Positions 2,154 through 35,191 of a stretch of DNA of 41,638 bases are shown here, piece by piece. The position numbers and the translations under genes were made by a program. The stretch lies in IMG/VR virus record IMGVR_UViG_3300045741_000222, positions 1 through 41,638 of that record; one strand, given 5' to 3'. Source of the DNA: a virus. A model generated the notes under the pieces. That model was not told the DNA's origin and ran no database searches. It worked only from the letters and a program-made list of their open reading frames with translations. The first letter of the stretch is position 1. The number at the start of each line of letters is the position of its first letter.

Positions 2154-2596
2154 CAGATCGCTGCGGCGATGCGGCCGCGCTCCGTCAGTGCCCACACGAT
2201 CGACGGCTCTCCCGTCGTCGACGGCCGCGTCGCTTCCGTTGCGCGTACCCAGCCGCCGTCGACCAGCTCGTTGCGGCGGGTGCGGTGCGCGGTGTCGGAG
2301 ATGCCGGGGACGCGGCCGATCTCGTCATCCGTCAGGCCGATGCGGTCGTCTCTCCATGCCTGCGCGATCGCGTCGAACACGCGTCGACGCTGCGTCCCGG
2401 AGCGTGGATAGGCGCTGATCGCTGCGTTCCTGGCGGTCGTCTGCGCCCCGGCCTGGAAACGGCCGATCCGCCGCTTGTCGATGCTCGACGTGTCGATGTC
2501 CACGTCGATCAGCGCGACCAGGTCGTCGACGAGCCCGAACGGGACGCGGTCGAGGTGGTCGTAGAGGACCCGTTCGACGTCATCCCTGGCCGTCAT
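2153..2596 (-). CDS. probable winged-helix DNA-binding protein
   Basis: The 147-residue product has a C-terminal winged-helix pattern: IGLTDDEIGRVPGISDTAHR (helix-turn-helix), then TRRNELVDGGWVRATEATR (recognition helix and wing) and a final strand IVWALTERGRIA. This 'condition-dependent winged helix' layout is common in phage regulators and small DNA-binding proteins. The N-terminal half is helical and unrecognised. It starts within the end of the upstream 65-residue gene and its stop overlaps the next start. It could regulate the early operon or act in replication; the sequence does not decide. Confidence 0.6.
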   Translation of the reverse strand: MTARDDVERVLYDHLDRVPFGLVDDLVALIDVDIDTSSIDKRRIGRFQAGAQTTARNAAISAYPRSGTQRRRVFDAIAQAWRDDRIGLTDDEIGRVPGISDTAHRTRRNELVDGGWVRATEATRPSTTGEPSIVWALTERGRIAAAI

Positions 2597-2777
2597 GGCC
2601 CCGCCTCAACGCGTCGAAGTACGCCATCGACGCATCCGTGGTGATCAACGCGTCGAACACTGCCACCCGGCGCTCTGCGAGCGCAGCGACGCTGTCGGCG
2701 TGGCGGCGAGCCTCGGCTGCGACTTTCGCCTCGACCGCCGCCAGCTCGGCGAGCCAGTACTCCAGCTGGTCGCTCAT
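2580..2777 (-). CDS. small coiled-coil protein (65 aa)
   Basis: The product (MSDQLEYWLAELAAVEAKVA...) is one long amphipathic helix with heptad spacing over about residues 5-45, followed by a short loop. Its ATG overlaps the stop of the 46-residue gene upstream (ATGA). It overlaps the next gene by 17 bases. Function unknown; an oligomerising or bridging role is possible. Confidence 0.6.
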   Translation of the reverse strand: MSDQLEYWLAELAAVEAKVAAEARRHADSVAALAERRVAVFDALITTDASMAYFDALRRGHDGQG

Positions 2778-2914
2778 GGCTTGCCCCTGCGGGCATGGCG
2801 GACGAACTCCACTCGCTCCTCGGCGGCGCGGACCTGGACCTCGACGTAGTGCCTGATCACGTCGCGTGTTGCCCGGATGTAGGGACTCCAGCCGCGGTAG
2901 GAGTGCGCGGTCAC
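2774..2914 (-). CDS. small basic hypothetical protein (46 aa)
   Basis: A 46-residue product starts from GTG 2914, which overlaps the upstream stop as GTGA, and ends ARRGKP with an ATGA overlap into the next gene. It is helical and basic. The double overlap in an otherwise gap-free operon is the main support. No family recognised. Confidence 0.5.
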   Translation of the reverse strand: MTAHSYRGWSPYIRATRDVIRHYVEVQVRAAEERVEFVRHARRGKP

Positions 2915-3420
2915 GACTTCGCCAGCTTCACGATCCGGCGCGGCTTTGACACGTACTCGGTGATCGCCGCGGCGACCTCCGTCGCGACGGCGGGCCGCTT
3001 CATCGCTCGCCTGAGCGCGAACCCGTCGACCTTCCACGTCTGCACGATGATCTCCGCGCCCGCCTCCTTCGACAGGATGCCCTGCTTGACGAGGCGCTTC
3101 ACGATCGCCGCGAGCTTGTCGTCGTCGTAGATCGGCTTGTCGCCCGCGCCGTCGACGGTGATGATCCACTCGTCGCCGACGATCTGCGTGCGGTTCTGCA
3201 GGTCGGCTCGGTGGCACGCCTCGATCGTGATCTCGCGGATCGCGGCGTCGATCTGCTGCTTCTGGTCGCGGAGCGCGTCGACGAAGCTGGCGAGCAGGTC
3301 CGTCGGCGCCTTGTCGAGCGCGACGACTTCGCCGGTGTCGGTGTCGAAGATGGCGGCGGGGATGTCGCGCACGCCCGCGCTCGTCACCTCCGTGATGTAC
3401 GGGATCAGTTCCAGTGGCAT
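2911..3420 (-). CDS. hypothetical phage protein (169 aa)
   Basis: The 169-residue protein starts MPLELIPYITEVTSAGVRDI, with GGGAGG about six bases upstream of the ATG. The middle is helical (DLLASFVDALRDQKQQIDA) and is followed by GDEWIITVDG and a basic C-terminus ending PRRIVKLAKS. It lies between the ERF gene and small operon genes, so a DNA-metabolism role is plausible, but I recognise no family. Similar-length unknowns beside annealing proteins are common in actinophages. Confidence 0.65.
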   Translation of the reverse strand: MPLELIPYITEVTSAGVRDIPAAIFDTDTGEVVALDKAPTDLLASFVDALRDQKQQIDAAIREITIEACHRADLQNRTQIVGDEWIITVDGAGDKPIYDDDKLAAIVKRLVKQGILSKEAGAEIIVQTWKVDGFALRRAMKRPAVATEVAAAITEYVSKPRRIVKLAKS

Positions 3421-3432
3421 GGTGGTCCTCCC

Positions 3433-3645
3433 TCAGGAGTCGTCGGGCCAGCGGCCCGTGGCGGTGAAGTACAGGTAGTCGGACGATTCGCACGTCGACG
3501 GTAGGTCGGCGGCGCTGGGCGTGCCGAACGGCGCGAGTGGCCTGCGCGGCGTGGCGGTGCCGTTCGCGTGGGACGCGGTGGGGAGCAGCGTGCGCGGCTC
3601 GCCGAGGTAGGGTCGGCGCTCCGCGGACGTGTCGTGGTACCTCAC
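3433..3645 (-). CDS. hypothetical protein (70 aa)
   Basis: The product starts MRYHDTSAERRPYLGEP from GTG 3645, which overlaps the upstream stop as GTGA. It is Pro/Thr/Ser-rich and probably unstructured, ending DYLYFTATGRWPDDS. No family recognised. Operon position and the start overlap support it. Confidence 0.45.
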   Translation of the reverse strand: MRYHDTSAERRPYLGEPRTLLPTASHANGTATPRRPLAPFGTPSAADLPSTCESSDYLYFTATGRWPDDS

Positions 3646-3833
3646 CGGTACTCCTTCACCCACGCCTCGCGCCGCGTCGCCTCCGCGACGGCGTTCAGGC
3701 GGCGTTGTTCCGCTTCGAGGCGTACGGCCATGCGGATGCCGTACACGCCGAGCGCCTGATTGCGGATGAAGCGGGCGGCGTCGCCGAGCAGGTCGGCGGC
3801 GGACGCGATCACATCGTATGCGTCGTTGTCCAT
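3642..3833 (-). CDS. small helical hypothetical protein (63 aa)
   Basis: A 63-residue, mostly helical protein (MDNDAYDVIASAADLLGDAA...) ends in a basic segment RREAWVKEYR. It begins two bases after the ERF stop and overlaps the next gene as GTGA. No family recognised. Confidence 0.6.
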   Translation of the reverse strand: MDNDAYDVIASAADLLGDAARFIRNQALGVYGIRMAVRLEAEQRRLNAVAEATRREAWVKEYR

Positions 3834-4721
3834 CTAGAAGGGGACGTCGGCGTCGTCGGGGTCGGGTGGGAGGTCGGTCGGTTCGGGCGTCTTCGTCTTC
3901 ACCATCTCCGCGACCGCTTCGGCGACGGGCCTTCCGTACTCGCCCGCGTCTGCCTCTGCCATCACGGCGGCGTCGACCTTCGCCTGCATCTTCGCGAGCG
4001 CGTCGACCTTCGCGTCGTCCGGGCCCGCCTCGATGAAGTCCGAGACCTTCTCGTACGTCGCCTTCGATGGGATGCGGTGCGGGTTGTCGGTCCCCGTCGG
4101 CTGCGCCTTCGTGCGCGTGAAGATGCGCGTCGCGAGCTTCACGACGTCGCGGTAGTCGAGGCCCCACTCGTGCTGCTTGGCGAGCGCGAACAGCCGCTTC
4201 GACTGGCCTTCGGAGACGGCGAACGCGGCGTCCCGCATCGACGGGGCGTGTTCGACGTGCGGCGTCGCTTCCGGGTCGTCCCCCGTCGAGATGAGGAACG
4301 TGTTCGTCAGGTACGACTTCTTCGCCGCGGTGATCGCCTTCAGGAGCGCCTTGTCGCCGAAGTCGGTCGACTCGCCCATCCACCGCACCGTCTCGACCTC
4401 GTTCTTCTCTGTCGAGAGCGTGAACATGAGGTCGACGAGCATGCCGGTGCCGCGCGTGCCTTTCGCCGACGTGATCTCCCACCGCTGCACGTCGTTCATC
4501 TGCACCGTCAGGCTGATGCCGTTCTCGGCGAGCAGCGTGCGGAGCGCGTCGACGATGTCGGACTCGCGCGCGAACGGGTAGCCCTGCTCCTTGTTGATGC
4601 CGAGCTTCGGGATGCGCTCGACTCCGGCGAGCACGCGCGCCTTGCGTGCGTGCAGCGAGTCGGGCAGGCCCGCGTCTTCGGCGGGCTGCGCGGCCTTCGG
4701 CCGCGTCTGCGTGGTGGTCAT
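3834..4721 (-). CDS. erf: ERF-family single-strand annealing protein
   Basis: The 295-residue product fits the ERF superfamily of phage single-strand annealing recombinases. An N-terminal charged linker is followed by IPKLGINKEQGYPFARESDI and a core containing a long strand-rich segment, then TDFGDKALLKAITAAKKSYL, the family's DKA...KA.T.A.KY signature. ERF proteins anneal complementary DNA strands and help circularise or repair phage genomes. The C-terminus ends PPDPDDADVPF, close to the acidic tip of bacterial SSB proteins. I chose the ATG at 4721 because AGGAG lies five bases upstream; a GTG at 4727 overlaps that site. It heads the leftward early operon and has a promoter-like TATGCT 57 bases upstream. 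Confidence 0.85.
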   Translation of the reverse strand: MTTTQTRPKAAQPAEDAGLPDSLHARKARVLAGVERIPKLGINKEQGYPFARESDIVDALRTLLAENGISLTVQMNDVQRWEITSAKGTRGTGMLVDLMFTLSTEKNEVETVRWMGESTDFGDKALLKAITAAKKSYLTNTFLISTGDDPEATPHVEHAPSMRDAAFAVSEGQSKRLFALAKQHEWGLDYRDVVKLATRIFTRTKAQPTGTDNPHRIPSKATYEKVSDFIEAGPDDAKVDALAKMQAKVDAAVMAEADAGEYGRPVAEAVAEMVKTKTPEPTDLPPDPDDADVPF

Positions 4722-31083: not shown

Positions 31084-31229
31084 CGCTTCTTCGCTTCCGC
31101 TGCCCAGCGTGCCTGTTGTTCGCGTTGAATCGCTGCCTTCTCCGCTGCGAGCTGTCGAGACTCGTCGGCTGTCATCCCTGGACGTGCTTTGCGCTCCAGT
31201 GCGATGAGGCGGGTAATTAGAGGTTCCAT
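31080..31229 (-). CDS. small helical protein (49 aa)
   Basis: The product (MEPLITRLIALERKARPGMT..., ending ARWAAEAKKR) is one long basic helix. Its ATG lies inside the end of the MuF gene and its stop overlaps the next start as ATGA, so it is translationally coupled on both sides. It is too short for most annotation thresholds. Function unknown. Confidence 0.6.
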   Translation of the reverse strand: MEPLITRLIALERKARPGMTADESRQLAAEKAAIQREQQARWAAEAKKR

Positions 31230-34200
31230 CGTCGATCCCAGAGGTGTTCGTCGGTGAGGTGGATGTCCTTGCCTGCGCGGACTTCGGCGCGCAGAACGGG
31301 GTGGTCGACCATGACCAGTGCGCCGCGGTTGAGGATGACGCGCGTTTCGCCCGGGAGGAGACGGTAGCGGCGCGCTTCGACGGTTGGCGGCCAGAAGTAG
31401 CCGTCGTACCCCAGCATCGCGGCGAATCGTCCGTCGTCATGCATGAGCCAGCCGAGTTTGTAGTCACGCGATGATTCCGGCATCTCTTGCCAGAGCGGGT
31501 TGATGTTCAGCTTCCCATACCATGAGCGGCGCTGGTTGGCTAGGTCGGTCTTAGTCGCGATCTTCGCATCGTTCTTGATTACGCCGCGAACGATTCCGCG
31601 GGCGTGTTCAAGATGAATAGGTAGCCACTTCTTGTCCCACGCTTTCGCAGCGGAACTACGTCCGAGCGGACGGGTAGGGATCTTCCCTGCCCATTCGTCA
31701 ACGACGGCCGAATATGAGAACGAGCCATCCGCTGCGCGGAACCGTGCAGTGCGAATGGCCTCAGTACGAGGCATCTTGTTTGTGAAGATATCTGTTCTTG
31801 CATCACTCTTGCTCATAGAGAACATGTAGGTTCCGTCGCCATAGATGCCGGTTCCTGCGTAGTGCCGCTCACCGGTCATGAAGTCTTCAATATGGTGACC
31901 GCCTCCGCGCCAGACCTCCTCGAACCCCTCGCCAACAAGCGTATCGACCTGCTCGAACGTCGCATATGTAGGCTTTGCATGCGCACCGACGCGATCATAG
32001 ATGGCTGCCAAGAGCGAATCTTCCTCTGCGTGTGCAGGGTGGCGCCCTGCCTCACCCCCCTTCTTGATCCAATCGTTGAGAAGCGTCTCTGCCTCGTAAG
32101 GCTGCATCGGCTTCAGCCGCACCGTCGTCTTCAGCTCGGCACCAGCCAGCTTGCTAACGGCCTTCGCCTCGACCTTCGACTCGACCGTCTTCATCGGCAG
32201 CACGCCGAGCCCATCGAGGTACTTGTCGAGCAGCGGCTCCAACCGCTTGAACTCCACGTCCGAGAAGAACCGGCCGTTGTCGATCCGCCAACGGTCAACC
32301 TTCATGCCCGATCGGACCGCAGCCTTCTGCGCGAACAGGCGCGCGATCATCTCGTTGTCGCTGGTGTAGTACTCGATCTTGTCCTTCGGCAGCTTCCGCA
32401 AGCCCATCGACGCCCAGGGCGAGTCGCCGCCGCGAACCGTGACGATCGTACGCGTCTGCAGCATCTCCCTGACGAGAAGCTCGCGGGGCGAGCGGTCGTC
32501 GCTCGGCCGCCGCGGACGACCCATGTCGAGATGGTGCCCGAACTCGTGGAAGTACGTCGTGCGCATACTCTCGGCCTGGAACTTCAACTCCTCGAGCGAG
32601 GCCTTGCGCTGCTCCCCCGTCCATGCCGACGCCTCATGCATCAGCTTCCAGTGCTTCTCCGCCTCGGCCCGCCCCATCTGGATCGACGCTGGGCGGTCCA
32701 TGTCCTTGCTGAACAGGTCGCCTTGGCCCGGGAGGTAGCGTCCGCGTGCCCCGCGAAGGTCGTATGGGTAGGCGTGGACCTTGAAGTAGTCCGGCGGCAG
32801 GACGATGCCCATGTTCGCGAGCGCGTCGTCGGCGAGCGTCATCTGCTTGAACAGCTCGTCATACGCCCCACCCGTAGGCCAGTAGTAGAGGGTCGCGAGC
32901 TTGCCATCCACAGAGCCGCCGAGGGGCGACAACTCTGACTTCAGCTTCGGGGGGGTCGGCTTCGGTTGCCCTACCCGTGGCGTTGCACCCGGCGTCAACC
33001 CGGTGATCGTCGTCTTTCCGCTGCGCCTCTGCGCCTTCTCGACCTGGACCTTCCGCGCGATCTCCTTCCACGTGGCGTTCTCGGGAGACTTCACGCCTGC
33101 GACGAAGTCGTCCGTCAGCATCTTCGACGCGAAGTTGCCGAGCGACGTCAACTCCGAGGGCGTGAGGTTCGCGATGTTCGCGCCGCCGGTGCGTAGCGCC
33201 TCGTCGATATGGGACGGGATGCCGCCAGGGGCCTTCGGCACGGCCTTCGGCGCGGGGATAGGCGCGGCCCTCGTCGTCGTGCGGCGGCGGTGCTTGACCA
33301 GCACCTTCGTCGTCACCTGCGACCCGTCCGGTCCTGTCGTCGTCACGGTGCGGTAGCGCGGCTTGCGTCGCTTCGTCTTGCCAGGCGTCGGACTGGCCGC
33401 GTCGAGGAATCCCTGCAGGTGCTCGTCGGGCAGGCCCGCGAGCTTGCGCATCTCCTTGACGGGGCGCAGGTTGCGCTGCGTGCCGTAGACGCCGTGGTGC
33501 GTCGACTGCACGAAGTCGCTGAGCGCCATGTTCGACTGCTGGTAGACGTCGAAGCGGCCCGGGCCGAGCATCGCCAGTTGCCGATCCCGCGGGAGCTTGG
33601 AGAACGCGTCGTCGCCAGGCTCGGGGTAGAGCGACGCCATCTGTGGCAGGTACGGCACCTGCGTACACCGACAGTTGCTAGCTATGATGCCATTGGCGCT
33701 GTGCCATCCCCCTAGGGTTTCCAAGGAGAACACCGGATGACCTGGCGACCACTCGACATCGACACCGACCACATAGTCAAGCTCTACCAGGCCGGGACGA
33801 GCGAACAACGCATCGCGCAACTTCTCGGCATCAGTCGAACCCCCATCCGCCGCGTCCTGCGCGAAGCGGGCATCGAACGTCGCGGGCGCGACGATGCGAA
33901 CCGCCTGATGTCGAGCCAGCGCACGCCCGAGCAGCACATCGCCAACACCGCCGCTGCCCATGCCGCCCGACGCGGATCGACGGCCAGCATTGCTGAGCTG
34001 GAGCGACGCGCGCTCGGCACACAGCGAGCACAGTCGAACACCTCCACCGCTGAACGCCTGATCGCCACCTGGCTCCGCGAGCGCGGCGTCGAACCCGTCC
34101 ATCAACAGGCCGTGGGCCCGTACAACGTAGACCTCGCTGCCAGCCCCGTCGCCGTGGAGGTCTGGTCGGGAAGCTGGCACTTCGCGGGCGCGCACGCCGA

Positions 34201-35191
34201 ACGCGCCGCTCGCCGCTCGCGCTACATCCTCGACGCGGGCTGGACGCTGGTGATCGTCGCCAGCGATGCGCGCCAGAGCCCGCTCGTCCCCGACGTAGCG
34301 GACCGCATCGTCGCCCTCCTTGAGCGTGCGCGCCTTGCGCCAGCCAGTCGATGTGAGCAGTGGGTGATTGGGGGTGCAGGTGAGCGTCGACCCCGACTGG
34401 AAGCGAAGGTGCAGGAGCTGACCGGTATACCCACGCTCGGTTGACGCGACGACGCGCGGCCCGCTCACGACGACGCCGCCAGGGAAACAGTTCGGGTGGC
34501 TGTCGAGCGGCACGCCGACGGGGAAGCGGTTGCCGCTCATCGCGAAGCACGTCGCGCAGGTGCGCTGGTCGCGGATCGACAGCCACACCCACTCGTCGAT
34601 GCCCGCGTCCTGGATCGCGGCTTGCGCGCCGGAGCGGTACGCGCGCAGCATCTCGGTGCGCGCGACGAGGTTCGCGCGGTACACCGTCATGTCGGCCTGC
34701 TTGCGCATCTCGCGCGCGACGACGCTCGGGTGCTTGCCGAGCGCGACGCCGTTTGCCAGCGTCGTTTTCAGCATCGACGCGTTCTCGCCCGCGATCGACG
34801 CCATCAGCGGCGCGAGCTGGTGCGACAGCGTCGTCGTCAACGCCGCGAGCGCGCGGTCGGGCACGCCGACGAAGCTCGACGACACGCCGATCGCCTCCTC
34901 CATCGCGTCCGCGCCCGCCTTCACACCCGACTTCTGCAGGCCCGTGATCGGCGTTGTCGAGCGCTGCGCGGCCTGCGTCATCTGCTCGTCGATGACCTGG
35001 CGTAGGTCCTGGAGGCGCTGCGTCTCGTATGCCGCTGCCTCCGTCATGCCTGGGCGTGCGAGCGCGTCGATGCGCTGATTGATCCGCTTGCGGGCGTTGA
35101 TCCAGGCCTGCACGACGCGCAGCAGGGCTGGCCCGCTCGACGTCTCGAAGTCGCGGATAGCGGCGAGCGCCTGCTCCGCGATCGTCGCCAC
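31217..35191 (-). CDS. giant MuF-type head protein with intein, zincin motif and ART-like tail
   Basis: The frame encodes 1324 residues. Residues 1-234 plus 507 onward form an SPP1 gp7/MuF minor head domain: VARTEMLRAYRSGAQAAIQD, DQRTCATCFAMSG, and, after splicing, DSHPN joined to CRCTQVPYLP. Residues 235-506 are an intein. After a basic linker (605-760) comes a zincin-like region with HEFGH (H882, E883, H886) and E947 as possible third ligand. Residues of about 1080-1324 resemble an ADP-ribosyltransferase: VWRGG with Arg1095, then HYAGTGIYGDGTYMFSMSKS. MuF proteins enter the virion, so the C-terminal enzymes may be injected with DNA. The final 900 bases are visibly less GC-rich than neighbours, suggesting transfer. 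The ART call rests on pattern and is less sure than the zincin. Confidence 0.8.
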   Translation of the reverse strand: MATIAEQALAAIRDFETSSGPALLRVVQAWINARKRINQRIDALARPGMTEAAAYETQRLQDLRQVIDEQMTQAAQRSTTPITGLQKSGVKAGADAMEEAIGVSSSFVGVPDRALAALTTTLSHQLAPLMASIAGENASMLKTTLANGVALGKHPSVVAREMRKQADMTVYRANLVARTEMLRAYRSGAQAAIQDAGIDEWVWLSIRDQRTCATCFAMSGNRFPVGVPLDSHPNCFPGGVVVSGPRVVASTERGYTGQLLHLRFQSGSTLTCTPNHPLLTSTGWRKARTLKEGDDAVRYVGDERALARIAGDDHQRPARVEDVARAASGAFGVRAREVPASRPDLHGDGAGSEVYVVRAHGLLMDGFDAALAEPGGDQAFSGGGVRLCSLCAERASLQLSNAGRRSASGGMGSGGVGDVLLGRALARHQAVRIVAPATFDARFAQDAADGGSTDAEKLRDALFARPGLVELDYVVGVDVEWSPGHPVFSLETLGGWHSANGIIASNCRCTQVPYLPQMASLYPEPGDDAFSKLPRDRQLAMLGPGRFDVYQQSNMALSDFVQSTHHGVYGTQRNLRPVKEMRKLAGLPDEHLQGFLDAASPTPGKTKRRKPRYRTVTTTGPDGSQVTTKVLVKHRRRTTTRAAPIPAPKAVPKAPGGIPSHIDEALRTGGANIANLTPSELTSLGNFASKMLTDDFVAGVKSPENATWKEIARKVQVEKAQRRSGKTTITGLTPGATPRVGQPKPTPPKLKSELSPLGGSVDGKLATLYYWPTGGAYDELFKQMTLADDALANMGIVLPPDYFKVHAYPYDLRGARGRYLPGQGDLFSKDMDRPASIQMGRAEAEKHWKLMHEASAWTGEQRKASLEELKFQAESMRTTYFHEFGHHLDMGRPRRPSDDRSPRELLVREMLQTRTIVTVRGGDSPWASMGLRKLPKDKIEYYTSDNEMIARLFAQKAAVRSGMKVDRWRIDNGRFFSDVEFKRLEPLLDKYLDGLGVLPMKTVESKVEAKAVSKLAGAELKTTVRLKPMQPYEAETLLNDWIKKGGEAGRHPAHAEEDSLLAAIYDRVGAHAKPTYATFEQVDTLVGEGFEEVWRGGGHHIEDFMTGERHYAGTGIYGDGTYMFSMSKSDARTDIFTNKMPRTEAIRTARFRAADGSFSYSAVVDEWAGKIPTRPLGRSSAAKAWDKKWLPIHLEHARGIVRGVIKNDAKIATKTDLANQRRSWYGKLNINPLWQEMPESSRDYKLGWLMHDDGRFAAMLGYDGYFWPPTVEARRYRLLPGETRVILNRGALVMVDHPVLRAEVRAGKDIHLTDEHLWDRRWNL
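33683..33728 (+). promoter_or_regulatory. possible -10 box and ribosome site for the antisense endonuclease
   Basis: TATGAT (33683-33688) is a good -10 box lying nine bases inside the intein boundary. AAGGAG (33723-33728) lies eight bases before the ATG at 33737, an ideal Shine-Dalgarno spacing. Both face the plus strand and lie in DNA that encodes the last residues of the intein on the other strand. No clear -35 box is seen. Confidence 0.55.
33737..34444 (+). CDS. DUF559/Vsr-like homing endonuclease encoded antisense to the MuF intein
   Basis: The 235-residue plus-strand product lies wholly inside the minus-strand intein, antisense to intein residues of about 16-251. It begins with a resolvase-type helix-turn-helix (about residues 10-46: SEQRIAQLLGISRTPIRRVL). 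A nuclease domain follows: STAERLIATWLRERG (E106), VGPYNVDLAASPVAVEVWSG (D132, E141), SWHFAG (H148), then GWTLVIVASD. This matches the DUF559/Vsr-like fold and the EDxHD pattern of homing endonucleases such as I-Bth0305I. A strong ribosome site precedes the ATG. All surrounding genes for 25 kb run the other way. The intein frame over the same DNA is low-complexity, so the plus strand is the one under protein-level constraint. Confidence 0.8.
   Translation: MTWRPLDIDTDHIVKLYQAGTSEQRIAQLLGISRTPIRRVLREAGIERRGRDDANRLMSSQRTPEQHIANTAAAHAARRGSTASIAELERRALGTQRAQSNTSTAERLIATWLRERGVEPVHQQAVGPYNVDLAASPVAVEVWSGSWHFAGAHAERAARRSRYILDAGWTLVIVASDARQSPLVPDVADRIVALLERARLAPASRCEQWVIGGAGERRPRLEAKVQELTGIPTLG

Follow-up and report, generated by a model that had tools for sequence, protein, structure and literature searches.

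The window analysed here is the whole 41,638-nucleotide (41.6 kb) stretch of IMG/VR record IMGVR_UViG_3300045741_000222, on the minus strand of which genes for a terminase, a portal protein and a MuF head protein adjoin. The MuF gene includes an intein, and the opposite strand of the intein carries a second gene, for a nuclease-like protein, that lies antisense to the intein codon against codon. The features of the locus are as follows.

31217..35191, minus strand: MuF/SPP1 gp7-like head morphogenesis protein, intein included (1324 aa precursor; Phage_Mu_F 6.9e-11, TIGR01641 1.3e-13; portal and terminase genes adjacent)
33674..34489, minus strand: intein, 272 aa, with ordered ends and residues ~130-218 predicted to be disordered
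34487..34489, minus strand: intein Cys1 (block A), invariant or almost invariant in alignments
34352..34375, minus strand: block B TPNHPLLT, intein residues 39-46, facing nuclease residues 206-213 (C-terminal strand)
34145..34165, minus strand: intein DLHGDGA (consensus DFHGD), facing the nuclease core VAVEV and conserved in both frames
33719..33739, minus strand: block F HPVFSLE, with the nuclease ribosome binding site and ATG on the opposite strand
33674..33694, minus strand: block G NGIIASN, with a -10-like box on the opposite strand
33737..34444, plus strand: nuclease gene, 235 aa, ATG start, antisense to the intein; its product has a helix-turn-helix (HTH) at residues ~10-43, a helical linker, a Vsr/EDxHD-like PD-(D/E)XK core at 104-177, and a C-terminal helix and strand
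33723-33728, plus strand: ribosome binding site AAGGAG, 8 bases 5' of the ATG
33683-33688, plus strand: -10-like TATGAT, just within the C-terminal edge of the intein
34052..34054, plus strand: nuclease E106, conserved in 46/48 homologues; sense codon only TTC, CTC or GTC
34130..34132, plus strand: nuclease D132, conserved in 48/48; sense codon only GTC or ATC
34157..34159, plus strand: nuclease E141, conserved in 48/48; sense codon TTC or CTC
34178..34180, plus strand: nuclease H148, conserved in 47/48

The minus-strand insert meets the block criteria for a HINT domain, with C1, TPNHPLLT, HPVFSLE and NGIIASN followed by a +1 Cys. By sequence profile it resembles the Mtu RecA intein (1.7e-9), which is also its top Foldseek match (probability 1.00). 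The AlphaFold model is confident at residues 1-65 and ~231-272 and falls below 50 through most of 130-218. Its family scores lie below the cut-offs (25.0 versus 35.8 bits for PF14890, 23.1 versus 24.5 bits for TIGR01445); among the relatives, L069 (39.4 bits) and L035 (35.8 bits) reach the PF14890 cut-off, and Intein_splicing was found in 47 of 48. Searches with Pfam and PHROGs revealed no LAGLIDADG or HNH endonuclease in the intein frame, the middle of which is predicted to be disordered, and a canonical intein with an in-frame homing endonuclease was rejected because no such domain was found in that reading frame. Blocks, profile, fold and an empty allele (see below) establish that the insert is an intein at a conserved MuF site; its splicing is inferred.

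Two further observations concern the host gene. The MuF protein has a long C-terminal extension bearing a zinc-protease-like motif, HEFGHHLD (window 32525-32548, minus strand, residue 882), and this stretch has no Pfam match. In three relatives (L035, L055 and L060) a portal domain and the intein occupy one open reading frame (ORF), which in L060 also includes a MuF domain, suggesting portal-MuF fusions that bear the element.

The nuclease gene is wholly enclosed by the intein, with 63 nt separating its start from one edge and 45 nt its stop from the other. Its start codon faces intein residue 251 and its stop codon residue 16, and throughout the overlap the number of an intein residue is 252 minus that of the nuclease residue it faces. 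In this register the third position of each intein codon is the first position of a nuclease codon, and the reverse. The predicted protein matches HTH_7, a resolvase-type HTH, at 1.2e-5 and the Vsr-like family MTES_1575 (PF18741) at 1.1e-4. The latter match is significant yet sub-threshold (22.6 bits versus a gathering cut-off of 38.2), and the same family was matched in 35 of 48 relatives of the nuclease. The AlphaFold model has a pLDDT of 89.8, and its top match among solved structures in Foldseek is I-Bth0305I (3r3p; probability 1.00, E-value only 2.9e-3). The same chain is among the top profile matches, at 7e-4. The core thus meets the criterion for a PD-(D/E)XK (Vsr-like) fold similar to that of I-Bth0305I. 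When the two are aligned, E106 and E141 coincide with Glu, and D132 and H148 face Ala in the solved chain. The EDxHD label rests on similarity of fold and profile, with two of its four motif positions occupied by Ala in I-Bth0305I, and cutting by the protein is inferred.

An initial annotation of the window, made from the letters alone, had described the intein blocks, the 235-residue ORF, the AAGGAG and TATGAT signals and an overlap spanning intein residues of about 16-251, all of which held. It had also placed the nuclease residues E106, D132, E141 and H148 correctly, and these proved to be conserved as listed above. A structural match of the plus-strand protein to a nuclease, which it had named as a test, was found in I-Bth0305I. 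Its assignment of the protein as a nuclease is thus upheld by fold and profile, with the EDxHD label qualified by the two Ala positions.

An open antisense frame in GC-rich DNA can arise by chance, and for the window alone the probability of encountering no antisense stop, given the usage of Leu and Ser codons, is 0.038. Taken by itself this is weak evidence, and it is the homologues that decide the matter. In AT-richer relatives the chance of an open antisense frame falls to 8e-11 (Vibrio phage 1.197), 3e-11 (PvVp04) and 7e-11 (VaM_H2), and it is 1e-9 in Aaphi23 and ~1e-6 in Jerseyvirus. A chance ORF produced by high GC content was rejected on the strength of the AT-rich relatives.

The arrangement recurs widely. 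Protein searches returned 110 phage records with the nuclease frame, the top-ranked matches lying opposite head or MuF genes, and 122 records with the intein frame. Twenty related inteins were fetched, from phages of Gordonia, Mycobacterium, Rhodococcus, Salmonella, Pantoea, Cronobacter, Pseudomonas, Haemophilus, Vibrio, Klebsiella, Edwardsiella and Idiomarinaceae and from a Chloroflexota plasmid, and every one (20/20) has an antisense ORF of 208-413 codons in the same codon-to-codon register. IMG/VR holds more than 570 loci encoding relatives of the intein; among the viral loci examined, the antisense frame is open in 69/69 and the nuclease motif present in 64/69. When viral inteins were picked solely by their first 68 residues, an in-register nuclease was found in all 75, a sample that is not fully unbiased because those residues overlap the nuclease C-terminus. 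In the reverse search, from the nuclease, the opposite frame was open at 25 of 26 genome loci and at all 43 viral loci (43 of 43). In most deposited records the head protein is the sole annotation here; one record names a 'minor head protein with inserted intein' and omits the nuclease, and the PK1 record lists the antisense ORFs at the element as hypothetical.

Some members of the family depart from the usual form. Shortened elements, with an intein of ~185 aa, still have an in-register antisense nuclease (L236, L248 and L249, from 2501). At one locus (L241) a second, partial nuclease-like stretch was reported downstream of the nested copy, ~810-1005 nt past the intein start. On the plasmid NZ_LN890657 (L014), 'Plasmid III' of Candidatus Promineifilum breve, the element is accompanied by genes for a phage head and terminase, and this plasmid may be a phage-plasmid.

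Substitution patterns reveal selection on both frames. Among close relatives the ratio of third- to first-position differences is 10.4, 6.9 and 2.7 in the exteins versus 0.79, 0.67 and 0.56 over the nuclease, and across the overlap the antisense protein is better conserved than the intein. In eight Jerseyvirus-type alleles this ratio is 1.45 in blocks A-B, 0.38 in the disordered middle and 6 to 10 in blocks F-G. Individual positions show the same division. Opposite E106, Y129 and D132 the intein residue varies (F/L, V/I), using only codons that keep the nuclease residue; in block B, T-P-N-H-P is fixed or almost so and the facing nuclease residue varies (R/W, V/M, I/V); and at A139-V140-E141 both frames are essentially fixed. 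Resampling of synonymous codons over 234 columns identified 129 with nuclease-frame constraint and 52 with sense constraint, the latter concentrated in the splicing blocks and the nuclease core. These patterns show that the intein determines the sequence of the splicing blocks and the nuclease that of the disordered middle, and that both frames constrain block B and the nuclease core. Only part of the overlap, mainly the zones of block B and the nuclease core, is therefore truly dual coding. The idea that the nuclease frame merely shadows conservation of the intein frame was rejected by the codon-position and resampling tests and by free-standing copies of the gene.

Between blocks B and F, the intein motif DFHGD (residues ~110-114) is conserved beyond what the opposing nuclease codons demand. 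It was considered as a mere shadow of VAVEV and rejected as such, its sense His and Phe being conserved beyond nuclease codon needs.

The splicing blocks nearest the C-terminal edge of the intein also hold signals that could serve the antisense gene. The start codon in most relatives is found at 60 nt from the edge of the intein and faces the His preceding the V-Y-N-L motif of block F, and the N-L-E/Q codons of this block read GGAGG or GAGG on the opposite strand. Given the intein residues, such a Shine-Dalgarno (SD) sequence occurs in 46 of 76 loci, versus 15.9 expected (maximum 23 in 200 simulations). The Ile-Ile or Ile-Val codons of block G yield TATAAT-like hexamers on the opposite strand through use of the rare Ile codon ATA. 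At least five of six bases match TATAAT in 44 of the 76 relatives (11.5 expected, simulated maximum 20), and all six match in 17 loci (1.35 expected, simulated maximum 5). Several loci have an extended -10, TGn-TATAAT; the TATGAT of the window is a 5/6 match. The -10 in block G and the ribosome binding site and start codon in block F thus exceed what synonymous codon choice would be expected to produce. A promoter scan of the window region found no standard sigma-70 promoter. Only the -10 part of a promoter is supported; a -35 element would fall in the C-extein, outside the intein, and is unsupported; promoter activity is an inference.

Comparison of related genomes provides evidence for mobility. 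The Jerseyvirus MuF gene has 349 matching records, of which 58 match over at least 80% of its length and ~290 are short, most of these without the insert. Compared with Ijeoma, FSL SP-101 is missing exactly 816 bp at HPN|C, the flanks being ~95% identical, and more distant intein-less MuF genes were also found. Mismatches between this pair rise beside the insertion site, a pattern that hints at co-conversion, a possibility raised by one pair only.

The intein and nuclease pair can also decay. At L133:3001-3453 the nuclease frame is broken by a stop and a deletion and the intein blocks are intact. In Rhodococcus phage REQ3 (L013, 2330-3004) Ala replaces Cys1, and neither the start codon in block F nor the HTH of the nuclease remains; this copy is perhaps decaying.

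In two further loci the nuclease stands free of any intein. In a Thermoleophilia MAG (L109) a nuclease gene (2995-3690, plus strand), whose product shares 51% identity with the window nuclease across 199 aa, lies tail to tail with an intein-less MuF gene (3674-4720, minus strand) and overlaps its end. In a viral contig (L331) a nuclease gene (2321-3187, plus strand) is likewise tail to tail with an intein-less MuF-like gene (3131-3676, minus strand) that reads FIHPGCRC. The frame opposite the free nuclease has two stops in L109 and five in L331, with no block B. These loci are natural controls, showing that in the absence of an intein the sense frame is not kept open and the nuclease is kept. 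In the tree L109 falls inside the nested clade (support 91/89), and the free-standing state is probably derived, with the reservation that the clade is moderately supported and that nested copies served as the search queries.

Further claims of the initial annotation can be judged on this evidence. Its proposal that splicing and nuclease residues share DNA held, as there is constraint in both frames. Its view that the gene carries its own expression signals held to the extent that the -10 and SD exceed expectation, transcription being inferred, and its description of a mobile cassette is borne out by the precise empty alleles, with cutting and splicing inferred. The caveat it attached, that high GC opens antisense frames by chance, was fair for the window and is removed by the homologues. 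It had also called for a comparison of homologous inteins with and without the antisense gene, and in that comparison the gene was in register in 20/20 and 75/75.

Several other explanations can be weighed against a genuine nested homing endonuclease gene. One is that high GC content leaves the plus-strand frame open by chance and that its likeness to a nuclease is a shadow of the conserved intein; it draws support from the probability for the window alone. This explanation is all but excluded by stop avoidance down to 3e-11 in AT-rich phages, by the better conservation of the nuclease frame across the overlap, by independent fold and family matches, and by the existence of the gene without an intein. 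Translation of the nuclease from the host-strand transcript or via a frameshift, with no separate antisense transcript, is likewise excluded by strand. Insertions in phage methylases are known to house HNH genes out of frame on the same strand (PMC11855218), but here the two frames are antisense to each other, which rules out a host-strand message as template for the nuclease, and both the -10 and the SD belong to the plus strand, where codon choice favours them more than expected.

The nuclease might instead be real and nested but serve another role, such as exclusion of rival phages by cuts elsewhere in their genomes, and use the intein merely as a shelter. Free copies do persist beside intein-less MuF genes (L109, L331), so the enzyme can be kept without an intein. 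We nevertheless regard this as very unlikely, since intein and nuclease occur together at the MuF site in nearly all loci examined, precise empty alleles exist among close relatives, and the free copies adjoin the MuF gene itself, the expected target. It is equally improbable that the family is as described and the window copy degenerate, with a non-splicing intein or a dead nuclease. Decayed members do exist (L133, REQ3), but the window keeps Cys1, block B, the terminal Asn, the +1 Cys, the four putative catalytic residues, the ribosome binding site and the start codon, and its -10 matches at five of six positions.

Parts of this arrangement have precedents. Like canonical LAGLIDADG and HNH inteins, the element has HINT blocks A, B, F and G, a conserved host site, a nuclease gene inside and precise presence or absence; unlike them, its nuclease is EDxHD/Vsr-like and is encoded on the opposite strand as a separate gene with its own signals and with codons common to the splicing blocks. 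I-Bth0305I (PDB 3r3p) is an EDxHD homing endonuclease of a phage group I intron. It resembles the nuclease core in fold and profile and also has a separate DNA-binding part, but it is intron-encoded, not antisense to a protein-coding intein, and its DNA-binding architecture differs from the HTH found here. Antisense homing endonuclease genes have been published for nuclear group I introns (PMC9548176). There too the gene lies opposite the host strand within a mobile self-splicing element, but it occupies a peripheral loop insertion of a non-coding ribozyme and shares no protein codons. The out-of-frame HNH insertions in the methylases of phages ShiLan and Pacc40 (PMC11855218) similarly hide a nuclease, out of frame, in an insertion through which the host frame stays open; these are on the same strand, encode HNH nucleases and lack intein splicing domains.

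No antisense nuclease in an intein was found in the open-access literature searched, which did not cover bioRxiv 10.1101/2025.01.02.630785. That preprint, cited in PMC11855218, has a title on actinobacteriophage inteins with 'non-canonical architecture', and it may have priority for the MuF inteins of Gordonia and Mycobacterium phages. The suggestion in the initial annotation of a new intein architecture thus holds, as a new architecture within the known mobile inteins, only as far as the searched literature goes, related out-of-frame and antisense nuclease genes having been published.

We conclude that the locus is very likely (probability about 0.86) a mobile intein with its homing endonuclease encoded by an independent gene on the other strand, in exact register with the intein codons. 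The anatomy, recurrence, two-frame selection and precise presence or absence are shown; splicing, antisense transcription and expression, cutting of the empty site, and homing by repair copying are inferred, and no experiment shows these. In the proposed mechanism, the host strand would be transcribed and translated as part of the MuF head protein, and the intein ends would form a HINT domain that splices out and restores MuF. The middle of the intein protein would be a linker, with its sequence imposed by the nuclease frame. From the plus strand, the promoter-like -10 in the block G codons and the ribosome binding site and start in the block F codons would direct expression of the HTH and EDxHD/Vsr-like nuclease. 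The nuclease most likely would cut the intein-less MuF site (HPN|CRC codons) in a prophage or in another phage infecting the same cell, and repair of the break would copy the 0.8-1 kb element into the site, a step inferred from its precise presence or absence.

A bolder reading, which we consider likely, is that these loci represent a widespread class of phage inteins with an antisense, in-register homing endonuclease gene, in which block G doubles as the -10, block F as the ribosome binding site and start, and block B as the last strand of the nuclease, and from which the nuclease can escape to a position beside an intein-less host gene. The nuclease of an intein is expected to be encoded in frame, which ties its expression to that of the host protein. 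The arrangement described here would be a way to express the nuclease independently of protein splicing, with one stretch of ~700 bp coding for a folded enzyme on each of its strands in many phages. An unannotated gene would then be present in many of the phage head genes deposited so far, and the empty, decayed and freed copies allow direct tests of how antisense overlapping genes originate and what they cost.
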